Assembly: GCF_900176885.1 (NCBI RefSeq)
Contig: NZ_LT839648.1
Location: forward strand, 2,127,740 to 2,191,739
Length of the DNA: 64,000 bases
Source of the DNA: Oceanobacillus senegalensis
GTDB lineage: Bacteria; Bacillota; Bacilli; Bacillales; Amphibacillaceae
Reading direction: 5' to 3'
The position numbers were made by a program, and so were the translations under genes. The stretch's first letter is position 1, and every line of letters begins with the position of its first letter. The notes under the pieces were generated by a model. That model did no database searches and was not told the origin of the DNA. It saw only the letters and a program-made list of their open reading frames with translations. Positions 29,596 to 62,065 of this stretch are shown in pieces.

Positions 29596-30462
29596 GTGAG
29601 TTGGAATCAAATTGGGCTTAGTAACTTCAATAATACAAACACATCGGAAAGCTGCAACTATCAAAACTTTAATCCAAAACCGATTGAAATGTATGTCTTT
29701 ATCGACCCGCTTTGCCCAGATTGCTGGTATTTTGATCCATATTTAAAAAAGCTTACATTAGAATATGGGCGATTTTTCACTACTAGGCCAATTGTAAGTA
29801 TCGCAATAAATCGTGAAAGCCTTTGTAGATCAAAAAATAACTTTAAAAAGTTAACTAGACAATCAGAACAAACGTTAAATCAAATAGAAAAGTCAATAAA
29901 CAGTCCTTGGATTGTTTCTCTTGCCATAAAAGCTGCTGAGATTCAAGGTAAGAAATCAGGAAAAGCCTTTTTACGAAAACTACAAGAAAACCTATATTTA
30001 AGAAAACGCAATATCTCAAAGGAAGAAATATTAATTGATATCGCTAAACAAGCAAATCTCGATATTGAAGAATTTACTGAAGACCTTTATTCATCATCAG
30101 CCAAGAAGGCGTTCCAGCGTGATGTACAATTAACACATGAGATGGAAATTGAAGATATTCCAACTATCGTGTTTTTTAATCATTCTAATGATGACCAAGG
30201 GATAAAAATTTCAGGTGTTTATTCTTACGAGGTTTATGAATTTATTTTACGAGAAACATTAAAAAATACACCTATCCCATCCGCAAAACCTCCATTAGAA
30301 GAATTTATACAGAATTTTGAGGTGGTTGGAAGTAAGGAAATTTCCATTGTATATGATTGGTCCATATCCAAGACAGAAAAAGAAATGAAGAAACTCCAAT
30401 TCAAACAAAAAGTAGATAAGATTTCCAGTCAGCAAGGAACCTTCTGGAAATACCTTGGTTAG
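29596..30462 (+). CDS. spxH: ClpXP adaptor SpxH (YjbH), DsbA-like
   Basis: This 288-residue thioredoxin-fold protein presents Spx to the ClpXP protease. The DsbA-like CxxC is in DPLCPDCWYFDP (about 38-41). The GTG start follows AAAGGAG; an overlapping ATG is directly followed by a stop. The N-terminal tail has only one cysteine and no histidine, whereas I recall a His/Cys-rich metal-binding tail in B. subtilis YjbH. Its substrate Spx is encoded 6 kb away in this window. Confidence 0.92.
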   Translation: MSWNQIGLSNFNNTNTSESCNYQNFNPKPIEMYVFIDPLCPDCWYFDPYLKKLTLEYGRFFTTRPIVSIAINRESLCRSKNNFKKLTRQSEQTLNQIEKSINSPWIVSLAIKAAEIQGKKSGKAFLRKLQENLYLRKRNISKEEILIDIAKQANLDIEEFTEDLYSSSAKKAFQRDVQLTHEMEIEDIPTIVFFNHSNDDQGIKISGVYSYEVYEFILRETLKNTPIPSAKPPLEEFIQNFEVVGSKEISIVYDWSISKTEKEMKKLQFKQKVDKISSQQGTFWKYLG

Positions 30463-30584: not shown

Positions 30585-30706
30585 AAAAGAAGGATATGCG
30601 GGGCAGCGCATATCCTTTATTCCGTCTTTGTATAAATACAAAGGGGGATGGGAGAAAGTTTCATGATCAAACAAAAGGGGTATTTGTTTGTGTAATTAAC
30701 TTACAC
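30585..30706 (-). ncRNA. roxS: RoxS/RsaE small RNA, copy A
   Basis: This is a predicted 122-nt transcript. A promoter TTGCGA (30734-30739) / TAATAT (30711-30716) with 17-bp spacing precedes it. The RNA carries AAGTTAATTACACAAACAAA, the C-rich motif ATACCCCTTTTG, TTTCTCCCATCCCCC and CTTTGTA/TACAAAG, and ends in the terminator GGATATGCG/CGCATATCC plus a T-rich tail. The two C-rich segments match S. aureus RsaE and B. subtilis RoxS as I recall them. The site between spxH and the yizD-position gene is the B. subtilis roxS locus. RoxS pairs with mRNAs of central metabolism under nitric-oxide and redox control. Confidence 0.85.
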
Positions 30707-30754
30707 GTATATATTAACAATGATGACCTAATCTCGCAATACTTTTGTTCATAT

Positions 30755-30763
30755 TTTCACAAA
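30755..30763 (-). promoter_or_regulatory. ResD/SrrA-like box upstream of roxS copy A
   Basis: On the minus strand TTTGTGAAA followed by NNATGAAC lies just upstream of the -35 box. The same motif precedes copies B and C. TTTGTGAAT is the described ResD consensus, and roxS is a known ResD target. Confidence 0.6.
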
Positions 30764-30880
30764 ATGTTCAATTCTAATTTTGATTTTAAACCATATAAAT
30801 GTAGTATGAACATGGTGGGACTGCCATTACTCGGCTGCCGAAATCTTGTGGAGGGCTTCAGTAACTTGGACGTCCAAATT

Positions 30881-30906
30881 TGAACATGATTATTTTATCA
30901 TGTTCA
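30881..30906. promoter_or_regulatory. 26-bp palindrome upstream of the yizD-position gene
   Basis: TGAACATGAT and ATCATGTTCA are perfect arms with a 6-base A/T centre, 60 bp before the small membrane-protein gene. No U-tract follows, so it may be an operator rather than a terminator. Confidence 0.4.
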
Positions 30907-30966
30907 TAACACCGGATTTTTATCTTTCAAAGAGAATTCATTACATTTTGAAACAGGAGTGAAAGT

Positions 30967-31149
30967 ATGATGCAACAAACTTATCCGTTTCTATTTCTAA
31001 TTATAACAATTTTTGCCTTTTTTATGAATGTCTTAGGACTTATGCAATTAGTTCCACTTTATGTTACACTCCCCTTCTTGTTTATATCTATCTATTTAAC
31101 CATCTATTCATTTACCAATCAAAACACTTATAGAAGACGTATGAGGTAA
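30967..31149 (+). CDS. Small membrane protein in the yizD position
   Basis: This 60-residue protein has two hydrophobic segments (about 6-26 and 31-50) and ends in a basic tail YRRRMR. CAGGAGTG stands 5 bases before the ATG, so it is very likely a real gene. In B. subtilis the small gene yizD occupies the place between pepF and spxH; I cannot confirm sequence homology. Two hydrophobic helices and small size also fit a type I toxin, but the flanking RNAs look like RoxS rather than antitoxins. Confidence 0.7.
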   Translation: MMQQTYPFLFLIITIFAFFMNVLGLMQLVPLYVTLPFLFISIYLTIYSFTNQNTYRRRMR

Positions 31150-31297
31150 ATAACTAAAGCAGAATCGCTCTCACAAGCTAACACATCACGTCCTAGAAAT
31201 GCGGTTACCGTCCCGAGGAAAACTATTTATCACAACAACTATACTAGCACGTCTTGTGCATCGTAGATATAGTTAATAATTTCATACCTAGAAAAGC
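31150..31297. other. Structured intergenic stretch between yizD-like gene and roxS copy B
   Basis: No gene is seen. The main feature is a long imperfect hairpin at about 31226-31275, with arms AACTATA / TATAGTT and inner pairs GCAC / GTGC. It could act as terminator for the small membrane-protein gene although no U-tract follows. Confidence 0.4.
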
Positions 31298-31416
31298 GAA
31301 AAAGGATATGCGGGCAGCGCATATCCTTTTCTTCCGTCTCTATTTAAATAAAGGGGGGTGGGAAAAAGTTTCAAGATTAAATAAAAGGGGTATTTATAAG
31401 TGTAATTAACTTACAG
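31298..31416 (-). ncRNA. RoxS/RsaE small RNA, copy B (diverged)
   Basis: This second copy keeps the same layout. Its promoter is TTGTAC (31444-31449) / TATGAT (31421-31426) with 17-bp spacing. GTAAGTTAATTACAC, ATACCCCTTTT, TTTCCCACCCCCC and the terminator GGATATGCG/CGCATATCC plus TTTTT all follow in order. It differs most from copies A and C in the middle (TTTAATCTTGAAACTTTTT) and in the second hairpin, where the CTTTGTA stem is lost. Both C-rich motifs, the seed regions, are retained, so it is probably functional with altered targets. Confidence 0.8.
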
Positions 31417-31464
31417 ATATATCATAGCAACATGTTTACGTTTGTACAAGTAATATGTTCATTT

Positions 31465-31473
31465 GTTCACAAA
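31465..31473 (-). promoter_or_regulatory. ResD/SrrA-like box upstream of roxS copy B
   Basis: TTTGTGAAC with the downstream half-site ATGAAC is present on the minus strand at nearly the same distance from the -35 box as in copies A and C. Confidence 0.6.
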
Positions 31474-31555
31474 AAATTCATTGGATTTTAATTCAGTTAT
31501 TTGTTCTTAATTTAGAAAGGCAGTTACGTAAACAATCAAAAACTACAATTATAAA

Positions 31556-31671
31556 ATAAATCTCAATCAGTGGGGTTTTCTTTCATCCCCCACTGATTAT
31601 TAGATAAACAAATCATGCTTTTTGGGACAGTTATTCCTCCATTTTTGGGTTGAGCTATTACTTCCCTCTTA
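31556..31671. repeat. Dispersed intergenic repeat, copy 2
   Basis: It starts AAATCTCAATCAGTGGGG and forms a hairpin with CCCCCACTGATT. It ends with TTATTCCTCCATTTTTGGG and CTTCCCTCTTAA, matching the copy at 7228-7321 from end to end with a short insertion. It lies between roxS copies B and C. Confidence 0.65.
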
Positions 31672-31824
31672 AATTGTAGTAATTTTCACAAAACCGACTT
31701 CATTCCCCTATCAACTTCAATATCTTTAAAAAGCGAATATCATTATTTTATGTATTAGAAGGAAAATGGACAACACCGAGTAAAATACAACATGTAATTT
31801 GGATAAATTTTTGAAAGAACAAAT

Positions 31825-31949
31825 AAAAAAGAATATGCGGGGCAGCGCATATTCTTTAATCCGTCTTCTTTGTATAAATACAAAGGGGGGATGGGAGAAA
31901 GTTTCATGATCAAACAAAAGGGGTATTTGTTTGTGTAATTAACTTACAT
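31825..31949 (-). ncRNA. roxS: RoxS/RsaE small RNA, copy C
   Basis: This third copy, 125 nt, is very close to copy A. Its promoter is TTGCAT (31977-31982) / TATTAT (31954-31959) with 17-bp spacing. The RNA starts ATGTAAGTTAATTACAC, as S. aureus RsaE starts AUGAAAUUAAUCAC. ATACCCCTTTTG, CTCCCATCCCCCC and the CTTTGTA/TACAAAG stem follow, then the terminator GAATATGCG/CGCATATTC with TTTTTT. The terminator arms carry paired changes relative to copy A (GGAT to GAAT, ATCC to ATTC), which keeps the stem. Confidence 0.85.
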
Positions 31950-31997
31950 GTATATAATAGCAAGTGCACACACATCATGCAAGGATGTTGTTCATAG

Positions 31998-32006
31998 TTT
32001 CACAAA
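31998..32006 (-). promoter_or_regulatory. ResD/SrrA-like box upstream of roxS copy C
   Basis: TTTGTGAAA with half-site ATGAAC lies upstream of the copy C promoter on the minus strand, in the same layout as the other two copies. Confidence 0.6.
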
Positions 32007-32040
32007 ATGTTCAATTTCTAGGCAATATTTGACATAGTTA

Positions 32041-32076: not shown

Positions 32077-33888
32077 TTAACCTAATAACAATTTTTCAAA
32101 CTCATTCAACTTCTCTTCAAATACTTCTAATGCACCCATTATTGGCTGTTTGGATGTCATATCAACTCCGGCTTTTTTCAATACTTCAATTGGATAATCA
32201 CTGCTCCCAGCTTTCAAGAACTCTAGATAGCGATCGACAGCATTATCCCCTTCTGACAGAATTTGATTAGCTAGAGAAGTGGCTGCGGAATATCCTGTTG
32301 CATACTGATAAACATAATAATTATAATAAAAGTGAGGAATTCTCGCCCATTCTAAACCAATCTCTTCATCTGAAACAATTGCATCACCGTAATATTTCTT
32401 ATTAAGGTTATAATAAATCTCTGTTAACTTATCAGCTGTTAATGCCTCACCATTTTGTCCTCTAACATGAATATCATGTTCAAACTCCGCAAACATTGTT
32501 TGACGGAACACTGTACCACGAAAGCCTTCTAAAAAATGATTTAAAATATATAATTTTTCTTTCTCATCGCTAAGATTTTTTAATAAATAATCATTTAGTA
32601 AAGCTTCATTACATGTGGAAGCAACTTCTGCTACAAATATGGAATAATTTCCATAGCGGAATGGCTGATGTTTTCTTGTATAATAACTGTGTAGAGAATG
32701 CCCTAACTCATGCGCCAAAGTAAATGTATTATTAATATTATCTTGCCAGTTCAATAAAATATATGGGTTGGTTCCATAGGCGCCAGATGAATATGCTCCA
32801 CTACGCTTCCCTTTATTTTCTTCCACATCAATCCACCGATTCTCAAAGCCCTCTTTTAATACCTTACCATAATCTTCACCGAGTGGTGCTAACCCTTTAA
32901 GAACATAATCCTTTGCTTGTTCATAGTTTATTTCCATCTCCACATCTTTTACAAGAGGGGTATATATATCATACATGTGGAGTTCATCAACGTTTAAAAC
33001 TTTCTTACGAAGCTCAATGTAACGATGCATTAAAGGTAGTTTTTCATTTACAGCTTCCACTAGATTATCATATACCTTCTCTGGAATATTGTTGTTATCT
33101 AATGCTGATTGGCGAGCAGATTCATAATTCCTTACTTTTGCAGAGAAATTATGTGTTTTTACTGTACCACTGAGTGTTGATGCAAATGTATTTTTAAACT
33201 TGCCATACGTTTCATACATAGCTTTAAATGCATCTTCACGAACCCTACGATCCTTGGATTCCATAAACCGACTGTAGCGTCCATGTGTTACATCCACTTC
33301 TTCCCCATTCTCGTCCTTTATAGATGGAAAAGTTAAATCTGCATTATTAAGCATTCCAAATGTTTGTGAACCAGTTGATAACGCCTCTGAAGCTTCAGCT
33401 AATAAAGCTTCCTCTTTTTGACTCAATACATGGGGACGTTGACGTGTAATTTCATCTAATACCTTTTTATATAATTGCAATTCTTCTTTTTCGTTTAGAA
33501 AAGTATCTATCTTATCTTCATCCATTGCTAAAATTTCTGGTACAATAAAGCTCATGCTACTAGATGCTAATGTAAGAACATTCTCAGCTTGTGCATTTAA
33601 AGCCTGGTAAAAGGAATTTGTCGTATCTTGATCATAGCGCATATGCGCATATGTATATAGTTTTCCTAGCCGTTCAGATAATTGGTCCTGCATTTTTAAT
33701 AATTCATATAGCATATCTGCTGATTCGGACAATTTCCCTTGATATTTCTTAATTTCTGGTATATCTTCTTGTAATTTGTTAAATTCTGTTTTCCATTGAT
33801 CATCCGTTTCGAAAATATCCTCTAGTCTCCAAGTTTTTTCTTCTGGTAATTCTTCCCGCTTTGGTAATTCTTTAGCAGATTGTGCCAT
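32077..33888 (-). CDS. pepF: Oligoendopeptidase F
   Basis: This 603-residue M3B zinc metallopeptidase degrades oligopeptides in the cytoplasm. The active-site motif HELGHSLHSYY (HExxH) is present, with a downstream Glu ligand in EVASTCNEALL. The ATG at 33888 has AAAGGAGG 7 bases upstream; a frame extension to 33918 would place that site inside. Length is normal for PepF (about 600). It stands alone between coiA and the roxS array; pepF also follows coiA in B. subtilis. Confidence 0.95.
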   Translation of the reverse strand: MAQSAKELPKREELPEEKTWRLEDIFETDDQWKTEFNKLQEDIPEIKKYQGKLSESADMLYELLKMQDQLSERLGKLYTYAHMRYDQDTTNSFYQALNAQAENVLTLASSSMSFIVPEILAMDEDKIDTFLNEKEELQLYKKVLDEITRQRPHVLSQKEEALLAEASEALSTGSQTFGMLNNADLTFPSIKDENGEEVDVTHGRYSRFMESKDRRVREDAFKAMYETYGKFKNTFASTLSGTVKTHNFSAKVRNYESARQSALDNNNIPEKVYDNLVEAVNEKLPLMHRYIELRKKVLNVDELHMYDIYTPLVKDVEMEINYEQAKDYVLKGLAPLGEDYGKVLKEGFENRWIDVEENKGKRSGAYSSGAYGTNPYILLNWQDNINNTFTLAHELGHSLHSYYTRKHQPFRYGNYSIFVAEVASTCNEALLNDYLLKNLSDEKEKLYILNHFLEGFRGTVFRQTMFAEFEHDIHVRGQNGEALTADKLTEIYYNLNKKYYGDAIVSDEEIGLEWARIPHFYYNYYVYQYATGYSAATSLANQILSEGDNAVDRYLEFLKAGSSDYPIEVLKKAGVDMTSKQPIMGALEVFEEKLNEFEKLLLG

Positions 33889-33994
33889 TACAATTCCTCC
33901 TTTTATTTCATTACTCATTATAGTTCTAGATTTTGGAAAAAATTCCTTCCAAAATAATTCCCTTAGCTATTTAGTATTACGAAAGTAGGACAAA

Positions 33995-61372: not shown

Positions 61373-62065
61373 AGCTCTCTCCTCCAGCATTTAAAATTTT
61401 AACAATTTAGGTTTTACTATAAGAAGTCACTGTAGCTATAAAGTGAATCTCAATCAGTGGCGGTTTTCTTTCTTCCCCACTGAAACAAAGGAACAAAGGC
61501 TAAAGTCACAACATCCGTTGCAACGCCTCCTGAGACCTACGTCCTGTAGACCCGAACGGATCGGCTTTTAGGGTCAGGGCAGTTTTTACCACAAGGATAT
61601 GACACAAGGCCCAATTCATCTGATTATATCAACATTTACATTCCCGTATTTTTCTTCCCCTTGTTTCACAAAACGGTCGTTCCATAAAAGCTTGGTACAT
61701 GAAACCCAATCTATATAATTTATGATAGAATCTGAACCATCATGTTAATATTTGGTAAGATGGATACCAATTTAGAAAGTCTTTTATTCTTTAGAAAATG
61801 GTTGAAAAAGGCATGGCGCAGTTTTCAGAAAAAACTATCTATGTATCAAGATGTTAGAATCTTATTATTTGATCATCAAAGAATCAATCAATAAAAACAT
61901 CCATTTAAAAATTCCTGCATGCGAAAGGTTTTAATTATTTCTGATGAAGCAATAAATGATATAAAAGAGGGAAAGCCTTTATAATTCATTTTTCAGAAAA
62001 ATTAAACGAAGTCAAGGAACAAAAACCAATAAATTTCTACGTTCGTGTACATCACCTTCTTCTAA
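61373..62065. other. Non-coding stretch with repeat fragment
   Basis: It contains a partial copy of the dispersed repeat (61438-61482) and a second GC-rich stretch (61516-61580) with CTACGTCCTGTAGACC-type self-complementarity that looks unlike the surrounding DNA. A 50-codon open frame at 61742-61894 lacks a ribosome-binding site. I see no gene. Confidence 0.45.
61438..61482. repeat. Dispersed intergenic repeat, partial copy 3
   Basis: ATAAAGTGAATCTCAATCAG, TTTTCTTTC and CCCCACTGA match the first third of the repeat copies at 7228 and 31556, then similarity ends. Confidence 0.55.

Follow-up and report, generated by a model that had tools for sequence, protein, structure and literature searches.

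The window analysed here (a 64-kb stretch of the Oceanobacillus senegalensis genome) contains, between pepF and an spxH-like gene, three direct-repeat units on the minus strand (A, B and C) whose membership of the RoxS/RsaE family of small RNAs (sRNAs) is close to certain. The reading that we prefer, and consider reasonably probable, sees here sibling RoxS genes in tandem whose output is shared while their inputs evolve separately, with an added effect of dosage and with one copy, B, that is diverging. RoxS is a model redox sRNA, and arrays with a near-invariant core and separate promoters, which have apparently arisen several times, let one ask what keeps sibling sRNAs in a genome: a higher dose, additional inputs or novel targets.

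The roxS locus of O. senegalensis

Copy A (30586..30706, with a predicted start near 30704-30706) lies on the spxH side, at the presumed ancestral position, and copy C (31825..31949) on the pepF side; between them is copy B (31298..31416), the one with a diverged core. The upstream neighbour is pepF (32077..33918, minus strand; TIGR00181, 729.5 bits). The downstream neighbour (29596..30462, plus strand) encodes a thioredoxin-fold protein of the SpxH/YjbH type (PF13743, E 2.8e-62), which we take to be spxH from synteny with B. subtilis. It is convergent with the sRNA units and is followed by genes for a globin and a CYTH protein. These flanks support the original prediction that this is the roxS locus, and the three minus-strand copies, each with its own promoter and terminator, were found where it had placed them.

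The interval between copies A and B holds a conserved, membrane-like reading frame of 60 aa (ORF60, 30967..31149, plus strand) that served as a synteny anchor. No Pfam or NCBIfam family matched it. It was detected by tblastn in 27 of the 28 pepF loci of the genus, and in the remaining genome (G006) it was found in a separate stretch, L015. The opposite orientation of ORF60 and roxS is also seen throughout Oceanobacillus, in two Virgibacillus and in G071 (group g18), with weaker matches in the g234 loci. ORF60 appears to be a conserved small-protein neighbour of roxS.

Assignment to the RsaE/RoxS family

The best-scoring Rfam family is RF01820 (RsaE/RoxS) for copy A (61.9 bits, E 3e-9), copy C (57.5 bits, E 2.6e-8) and copy B (46.5 bits, E 5.4e-6), and the three units are its sole matches in the whole genome. 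The covariance-model check suggested with the original prediction had a mixed outcome: at the gathering score of 79 bits an Rfam search of the roxS region found nothing for A, B or C, whereas by E-value RsaE is the best family for each. The gathering score is a curated threshold and no biological feature. It is reached by none of the 159 genomes of the taxonomic family, though 142 of them have an RF01820 match, so missing it was not taken against the RoxS identity; in the order sample 175 of 397 genomes reach the cut-off. The predicted RsaE-like segments (AAGTTAATTACAC, ACCCCTTTT and CCCA/CCCC) are present in all three copies, in keeping with homology to RoxS/RsaE. That the units are instead an unrelated C-rich sRNA family, as the empty search at the gathering score might suggest, is barely credible given the E-values, the same locus, the same upstream box, the covarying terminator and RF01820 scores that rise gradually through the family and the order until they pass the cut-off, and chance repeats are ruled out by the Rfam match, the locus and the terminator covariation. 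Weak matches of other Rfam families to the same stretch, such as LhrC (25.6 bits against 110) and FsrA (18.7 bits against 80), score far below their cut-offs and were rejected. Elsewhere in the window (61484-61550, plus strand) there is a match to the Bacillaceae-1 RNA (RF01690) at 48.4 bits.

The units resemble RoxS of B. subtilis and RsaE of S. aureus in locus, length, C-rich regions, fold and upstream ResD-type box, as far as these are described in the available text of PMC4409812, and differ from them in being three in tandem. The fold was examined on an alignment of 44 RNAs from the genus (one of the 45 units was dropped, two being identical). On the consensus fold 99.1% of the cells are paired, against 96.7 in shuffled alignments, and 9 pairs and 38 cells are changed on both sides; shuffled alignments give 3.2 and 6.2, and sliding the structure along the alignment gives no more than 3 and 6. 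The count of further pair types (16) lies below that of the shuffles (18.1). Covariation is almost wholly that of the terminator, where 7 of the 11 pairs vary on both sides; stems 1-3 hardly vary, with no covarying pair in stem 1 and one each in stems 2 and 3, from single sequences. The terminator change between A and C is itself compensatory (G-C to A-U), and selection on terminator structure, proposed from such paired changes, is supported. On the consensus fold CRR1 and CRR3 lie unpaired in all copies: ACCCC occupies the loop of stem 2, and CCCA/CCCC falls in the gap between stems.

The terminator loop reads CTGCCC in 44 of 44 rows despite the covarying stem (30601-30606 in copy A), a difference from the RNAs of B. 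subtilis and S. aureus; copy B has one C fewer after it, and the two G071 copies have the same loop. This loop may serve as an additional site of pairing.

Promoters, upstream boxes and terminators

Each copy is preceded by a promoter with a TG before the -10 and exactly 17 bp between -35 and -10, as originally predicted: TTGCGA and TAATAT for A (30711..30739), TTGTAC and TATGAT for B (31421..31449), TTGCAT and TATTAT for C (31954..31982), all on the minus strand. All 45 units of the genus keep this layout. A scan with the generic sigma-70 consensus did not single these promoters out (8 found against 8.3 expected); the promoter of B is the one member of the trio among its results, as a shifted 16-bp form. 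Since the scan is at expectation and the layout is kept in 45/45 units, support for the promoters comes from their conservation and not from a consensus score.

Further upstream, a TTTTGTGAA box precedes each copy. In A it reads TGAACATTTTGTGAAAATATGAACA (30746..30770, about -64 to -40), and by sequence comparison it lies at 31456..31480 for B and at 31989..32013 for C, all on the minus strand. All 45 genus units have a T[AT]TGTGAA box, putatively of the ResD type by its sequence, and in B. subtilis ResD activates RoxS through a putative site near -65 (PMC4409812, in the part available). At the other end of the units, a terminator scan found three intrinsic terminators in 1.6 kb (0.8 expected), exactly one per unit: 30590..30617 for A, with the loop CTGCCC, 31299..31331 for B and 31828..31857 for C, again on the minus strand. 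It is likely that each copy is separately transcribed, from its own extended -10 promoter with its own ResD-type box to its own intrinsic terminator; both this expression and the control by ResD are inferred.

Origin of the copies

The gene order pepF - ORF60 - roxS is found in all 15 single-copy genomes of the genus, and copy A lies on the same side of ORF60 as their roxS. In the group of 11 genomes that includes O. senegalensis, the extra copies lie between pepF and ORF60 (in G006 this was read from L015), from which it follows that A would be the ancestral roxS and that duplication would have added B and C on the side of ORF60 that faces pepF. A different arrangement, with both copies beyond ORF60 on the far side from pepF, is seen in G009 and G012. 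O. alkalisoli (L056) and G071 share it, and so do the g234 tandem pairs in which ORF60 was found (5 of the 7). This position points to separate duplications. The PepF tree groups the 13 multi-copy genomes of the genus in one clade (SH-aLRT 86), and it conflicts with the ORF60 positions over a single origin. At least two duplications within Oceanobacillus are the favoured reading, and the gene order as a whole points to several independent roxS duplications.

In three species pairs (G003/G023, G004/G027 and G009/G012) copy 1 of one species is the orthologue of copy 1 of the other, and likewise for copy 2, which indicates that the paralogs were kept through speciation.

A nearly fixed core under diverging promoters

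The comparison of paralogs covers 19 of the 21 within-genome pairs, the two pairs with copy B being excluded. The core differs at 31 of 1020 positions (3.0%) and the spacer between -35 and -10 at 169 of 551 (30.7%). The other parts are the upstream box (72/475), the 5' leader (26/245), stem 3 (41/298) and the terminator (32/551). In O. senegalensis a single inserted C (1 of 54 positions) is all that separates the cores of A and C; copy A has no core substitution relative to the genus consensus, and both cores are essentially that of the single-copy species. In the preferred reading, the C-rich segments that A and C expose to ribosome-binding sites are the same, so that both would regulate the same redox and central-metabolism mRNAs, with the additional copies raising dosage. 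Because promoters and 5' operator regions diverge over a nearly fixed pairing core, we suggest that this shared output answers to different inputs. Such splitting of inputs as the reason for the retention of the copies is the least certain step of our reading, and spacer divergence is also what weak constraint would produce with no change of input.

The same comparison bears on a simpler explanation, in which the copies are kept just for a higher level of RoxS, gene conversion homogenises them and B is becoming a pseudogene. The three copies of G006, with identical cores and terminators and spacers that differ at 0-2 of 29 positions, fit dosage or gene conversion and count against a splitting of inputs. 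Also in line with dosage are the G016 copies, whose cores are identical and which fall into a single starred group, but their spacers differ at 5-10 of 29 positions. Copies on the pepF side carry more core substitutions (mean 1.53 for 15 copies, 1.0 without B) than the 11 at the ancestral position (0.45) and the other 19 units (0.11), which also fits this explanation. Against dosage alone stand the distinct orthologous copies 1 and 2 of the three species pairs and the intact features of copy B (see below), and we regard this explanation as unlikely.

The Rex operator was scored as TTGTGA-N6-TCACAA, which we take to be the Rex consensus; it is a regulatory trait that lies outside the definition of the RNA family. 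In favour of input splitting, all six g234 tandem pairs that were scored combine one copy with 0-1 mismatches and another with 4-5. In five of them the operator is perfect in copy 2 and departs from the consensus at 5 positions in copy 1; in G677 copy 1 has 1 mismatch and copy 2 has 4. The seventh pair (G654) was left unscored, its second copy having escaped the motif search. Against input splitting, both copies of G071 share the same Rex-like site with one mismatch.

RoxS of B. subtilis is repressed by Rex, whose site lies immediately after the start (PMC5419742, in the part available). At this position A, B and C carry the same 5' dyad, TGTAA-GTTAA-TTACA in A (30691..30705; 31401..31415 in B and 31934..31948 in C, all minus strand), with 6 mismatches to TTGTGAN6TCACAA and 2, at the ends, to TTGTAAN5TTACAA. 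None of the 45 genus units has the Rex operator (4-6 mismatches of 12), so a split of the g234 type cannot be read in the O. senegalensis genome; the TTGTAA-N5-TTACAA dyad, which in Oceanobacillus replaces the Rex site of B. subtilis, is found within one mismatch in 29 of the 45. Rex itself is encoded in the genome (342.6 bits). Of the 16 operator-like genomic sites with at most one mismatch (6 in the control) none is at roxS, but one lies 92 nt upstream of rex, between it and a divergent ABC-type gene. A wider regulon for the TTGTAA-N5-TTACAA dyad in O. senegalensis was considered and rejected (44 sites against 46 in the reversed control, no enrichment). Nor did pair counts support an RNA 5' hairpin formed by the dyad (76.0% paired against 76.2 in shuffles, in a part of the alignment that is gapped).

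Copy B and the predicted targets

Copy B has 9 core substitutions relative to the genus consensus (the other 44 units have at most 2), among them C-to-T and T-to-C changes in and beside CRR3. At the same time all 12 C residues of its CRR1/CRR3 are intact (chance 0.04), and so are the core of the upstream box, the layout of the promoter and all 11 terminator pairs, features that speak against a pseudogene. Its core also differs less than its spacer from both siblings (11/53 against 18/29 relative to A, Fisher P 0.0003; 12/54 against 15/29 relative to C, P 0.013). With these elements kept and core changes rarer than spacer changes, copy B is probably still under constraint, at a reduced level. 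In the tree of units it stands beside G006_1 (97/86), on a long branch and with unsure placement; if real, this would make it an older copy that is still kept, again contrary to dosage alone. On the consensus fold, stem 2 of copy B keeps 5 of 8 pairs and stem 3 keeps 5 of 7, each with one double compensatory change. The original prediction of a lost middle stem was thus overstated, although the minimum-energy fold of B does differ from the consensus; its contrast between close A and C copies and a drifted B holds, in the sharper form that B alone has diverged while the A and C cores are near identical.

The pairing potential of the copies was compared over 369 start regions taken from the window and 20 sampled stretches, with crude gene calls and accessibility ignored. 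Duplex energies correlate (Spearman) at 0.97 between A and C and at 0.66 between A and B; two shuffled copies correlate with A at 0.45 and 0.32. The top 30 start regions have 25 members in common for A and C and 15 for A and B. Mean energies are -19.95 for A, no stronger than the shuffled copies (-19.45 and -20.17), and -17.12 for B; since A does no better than shuffled sequence, the calculation serves to compare copies and shows no targeting. A search for seed complements gave 50 sites for A/C against 37 in the control and 47 for B against 53, counts that include the three copies themselves and do not clearly exceed the control. Single sites at the start codons of genes for an aminotransferase (L124), a GapB-like protein (L139) and a dehydrogenase E1-beta-like protein (L168), products named by eye, are not claimed as targets.

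The original prediction saw in the array a set of paralogs with diverging targets, each specialised to different mRNAs. The substitutions in the core of B, its lower correlation and overlap with A and the persisting constraint on its core would suit this idea. As a theme of the family it is not supported, with A and C correlated at 0.97 over cores like those of single-copy species and such drift seen in 1 of the 30 units of the 13 multi-copy genomes, and the weaker energies of B overall (mean -17.1 against -20.0 for A) are what decay would give too. We judge it quite improbable as an account of the array. The preferred reading, sibling genes with a shared output, would accommodate B as an intact-looking gene whose core is drifting, probably with a weaker or altered target range. 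As the sole unit of 45 to leave the frozen core, copy B is a test case between decay and new function.

Between B and C (31566-31597, minus strand) there is a strong hairpin that holds GGGGGATG, complementary to CATCCCCC of RoxS and reminiscent of the G-rich sponge RosA described in the available part of PMC8216469. The surrounding 186 nt fold better than shuffles (z -2.66), and an exact search found the hairpin in 10 of 209 loci, all from the O. senegalensis genome.

Relation to other sibling sRNAs

Sibling sRNAs, that is, two or more closely related sRNA genes per genome, are a known kind to which the three copies found here belong; LhrC is one example. The csrB sRNA acts by titrating a protein, whereas RoxS pairs with mRNAs. 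A likeness to the duplicated csrB of Vibrio lies in copies placed under different regulation (PMC6262261, in the text available). The csRNAs, Qrr and PrrF are likewise present as multiple close relatives in one genome, in some cases arranged in tandem, and their roles can be redundant or not; they are other RNA families, and RsaE does not occur in the available portion of the review that treats them (PMC4211561). The accessible text treats RoxS as a single gene: 'copies' and 'paralog' are absent from that of PMC4409812, and 'copies' from that of PMC8216469. Among the papers listed, judged partly by title alone, our literature searches returned no report of roxS arrays and no paper joining RsaE or RoxS with Oceanobacillus, so that such arrays are apparently new within the literature searched.

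Distribution of roxS arrays

The array is not the one-off arrangement that had been proposed. All 28 Oceanobacillus genomes have roxS, in three copies in 4, two in 9 and one in 15, so that 13 of the 28 are multi-copy, and tandem pairs occur in other genera as well. Most relatives carry a single RoxS gene. The 131 genomes of the family outside the genus yielded one tandem pair (G071). In the class sample roxS was found in 113 of 398 genomes and was multi-copy in 2, both Oceanobacillus; in the order sample it was found in 248 of 397, with more than one match in 13 and a tandem arrangement in 11 (4 Oceanobacillus and 7 of the 12 roxS-bearing g234 genomes). Searches of more than 40 genomes used stricter filters, and their counts of weak copies are lower bounds. 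A scan of named genomes for the exact core returned 27 stretches (24 from Oceanobacillus, 2 from Virgibacillus and 1 from Compostibacillus), with three cores within a single stretch each in O. piezotolerans and O. halophilus and two each in O. caeni, O. luteolus, O. chungangensis, O. indicireducens, O. alkalisoli and Oceanobacillus sp. Castelsardo.

A broader and more tentative proposal is that recurrent duplication of roxS in several lineages of Bacillales builds input-splitting arrays, in which an occasional copy, such as B, becomes a new riboregulator. If true, a near-frozen redox output RNA would stand under two or three separately evolving switches, exemplified by the Rex-controlled and Rex-blind copies of g234 and by the non-Rex dyad of Oceanobacillus.

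Some genomes have additional weak RF01820 matches (36-44 bits) that were not counted as tandem, a second one in G131, G812 and G884 and a third in G845 and G864, located on other contigs or about 76 kb away. Two of them lie on the opposite strand about 76 kb from a tandem pair: L119 1501-1608 in G864 (44.0 bits), RoxS-like and with its own CTTGTGAAATACTGAACA box, and a weaker RoxS-like match in L120 of G845 (38.1 bits). Both are possibly a diverged, relocated paralog.
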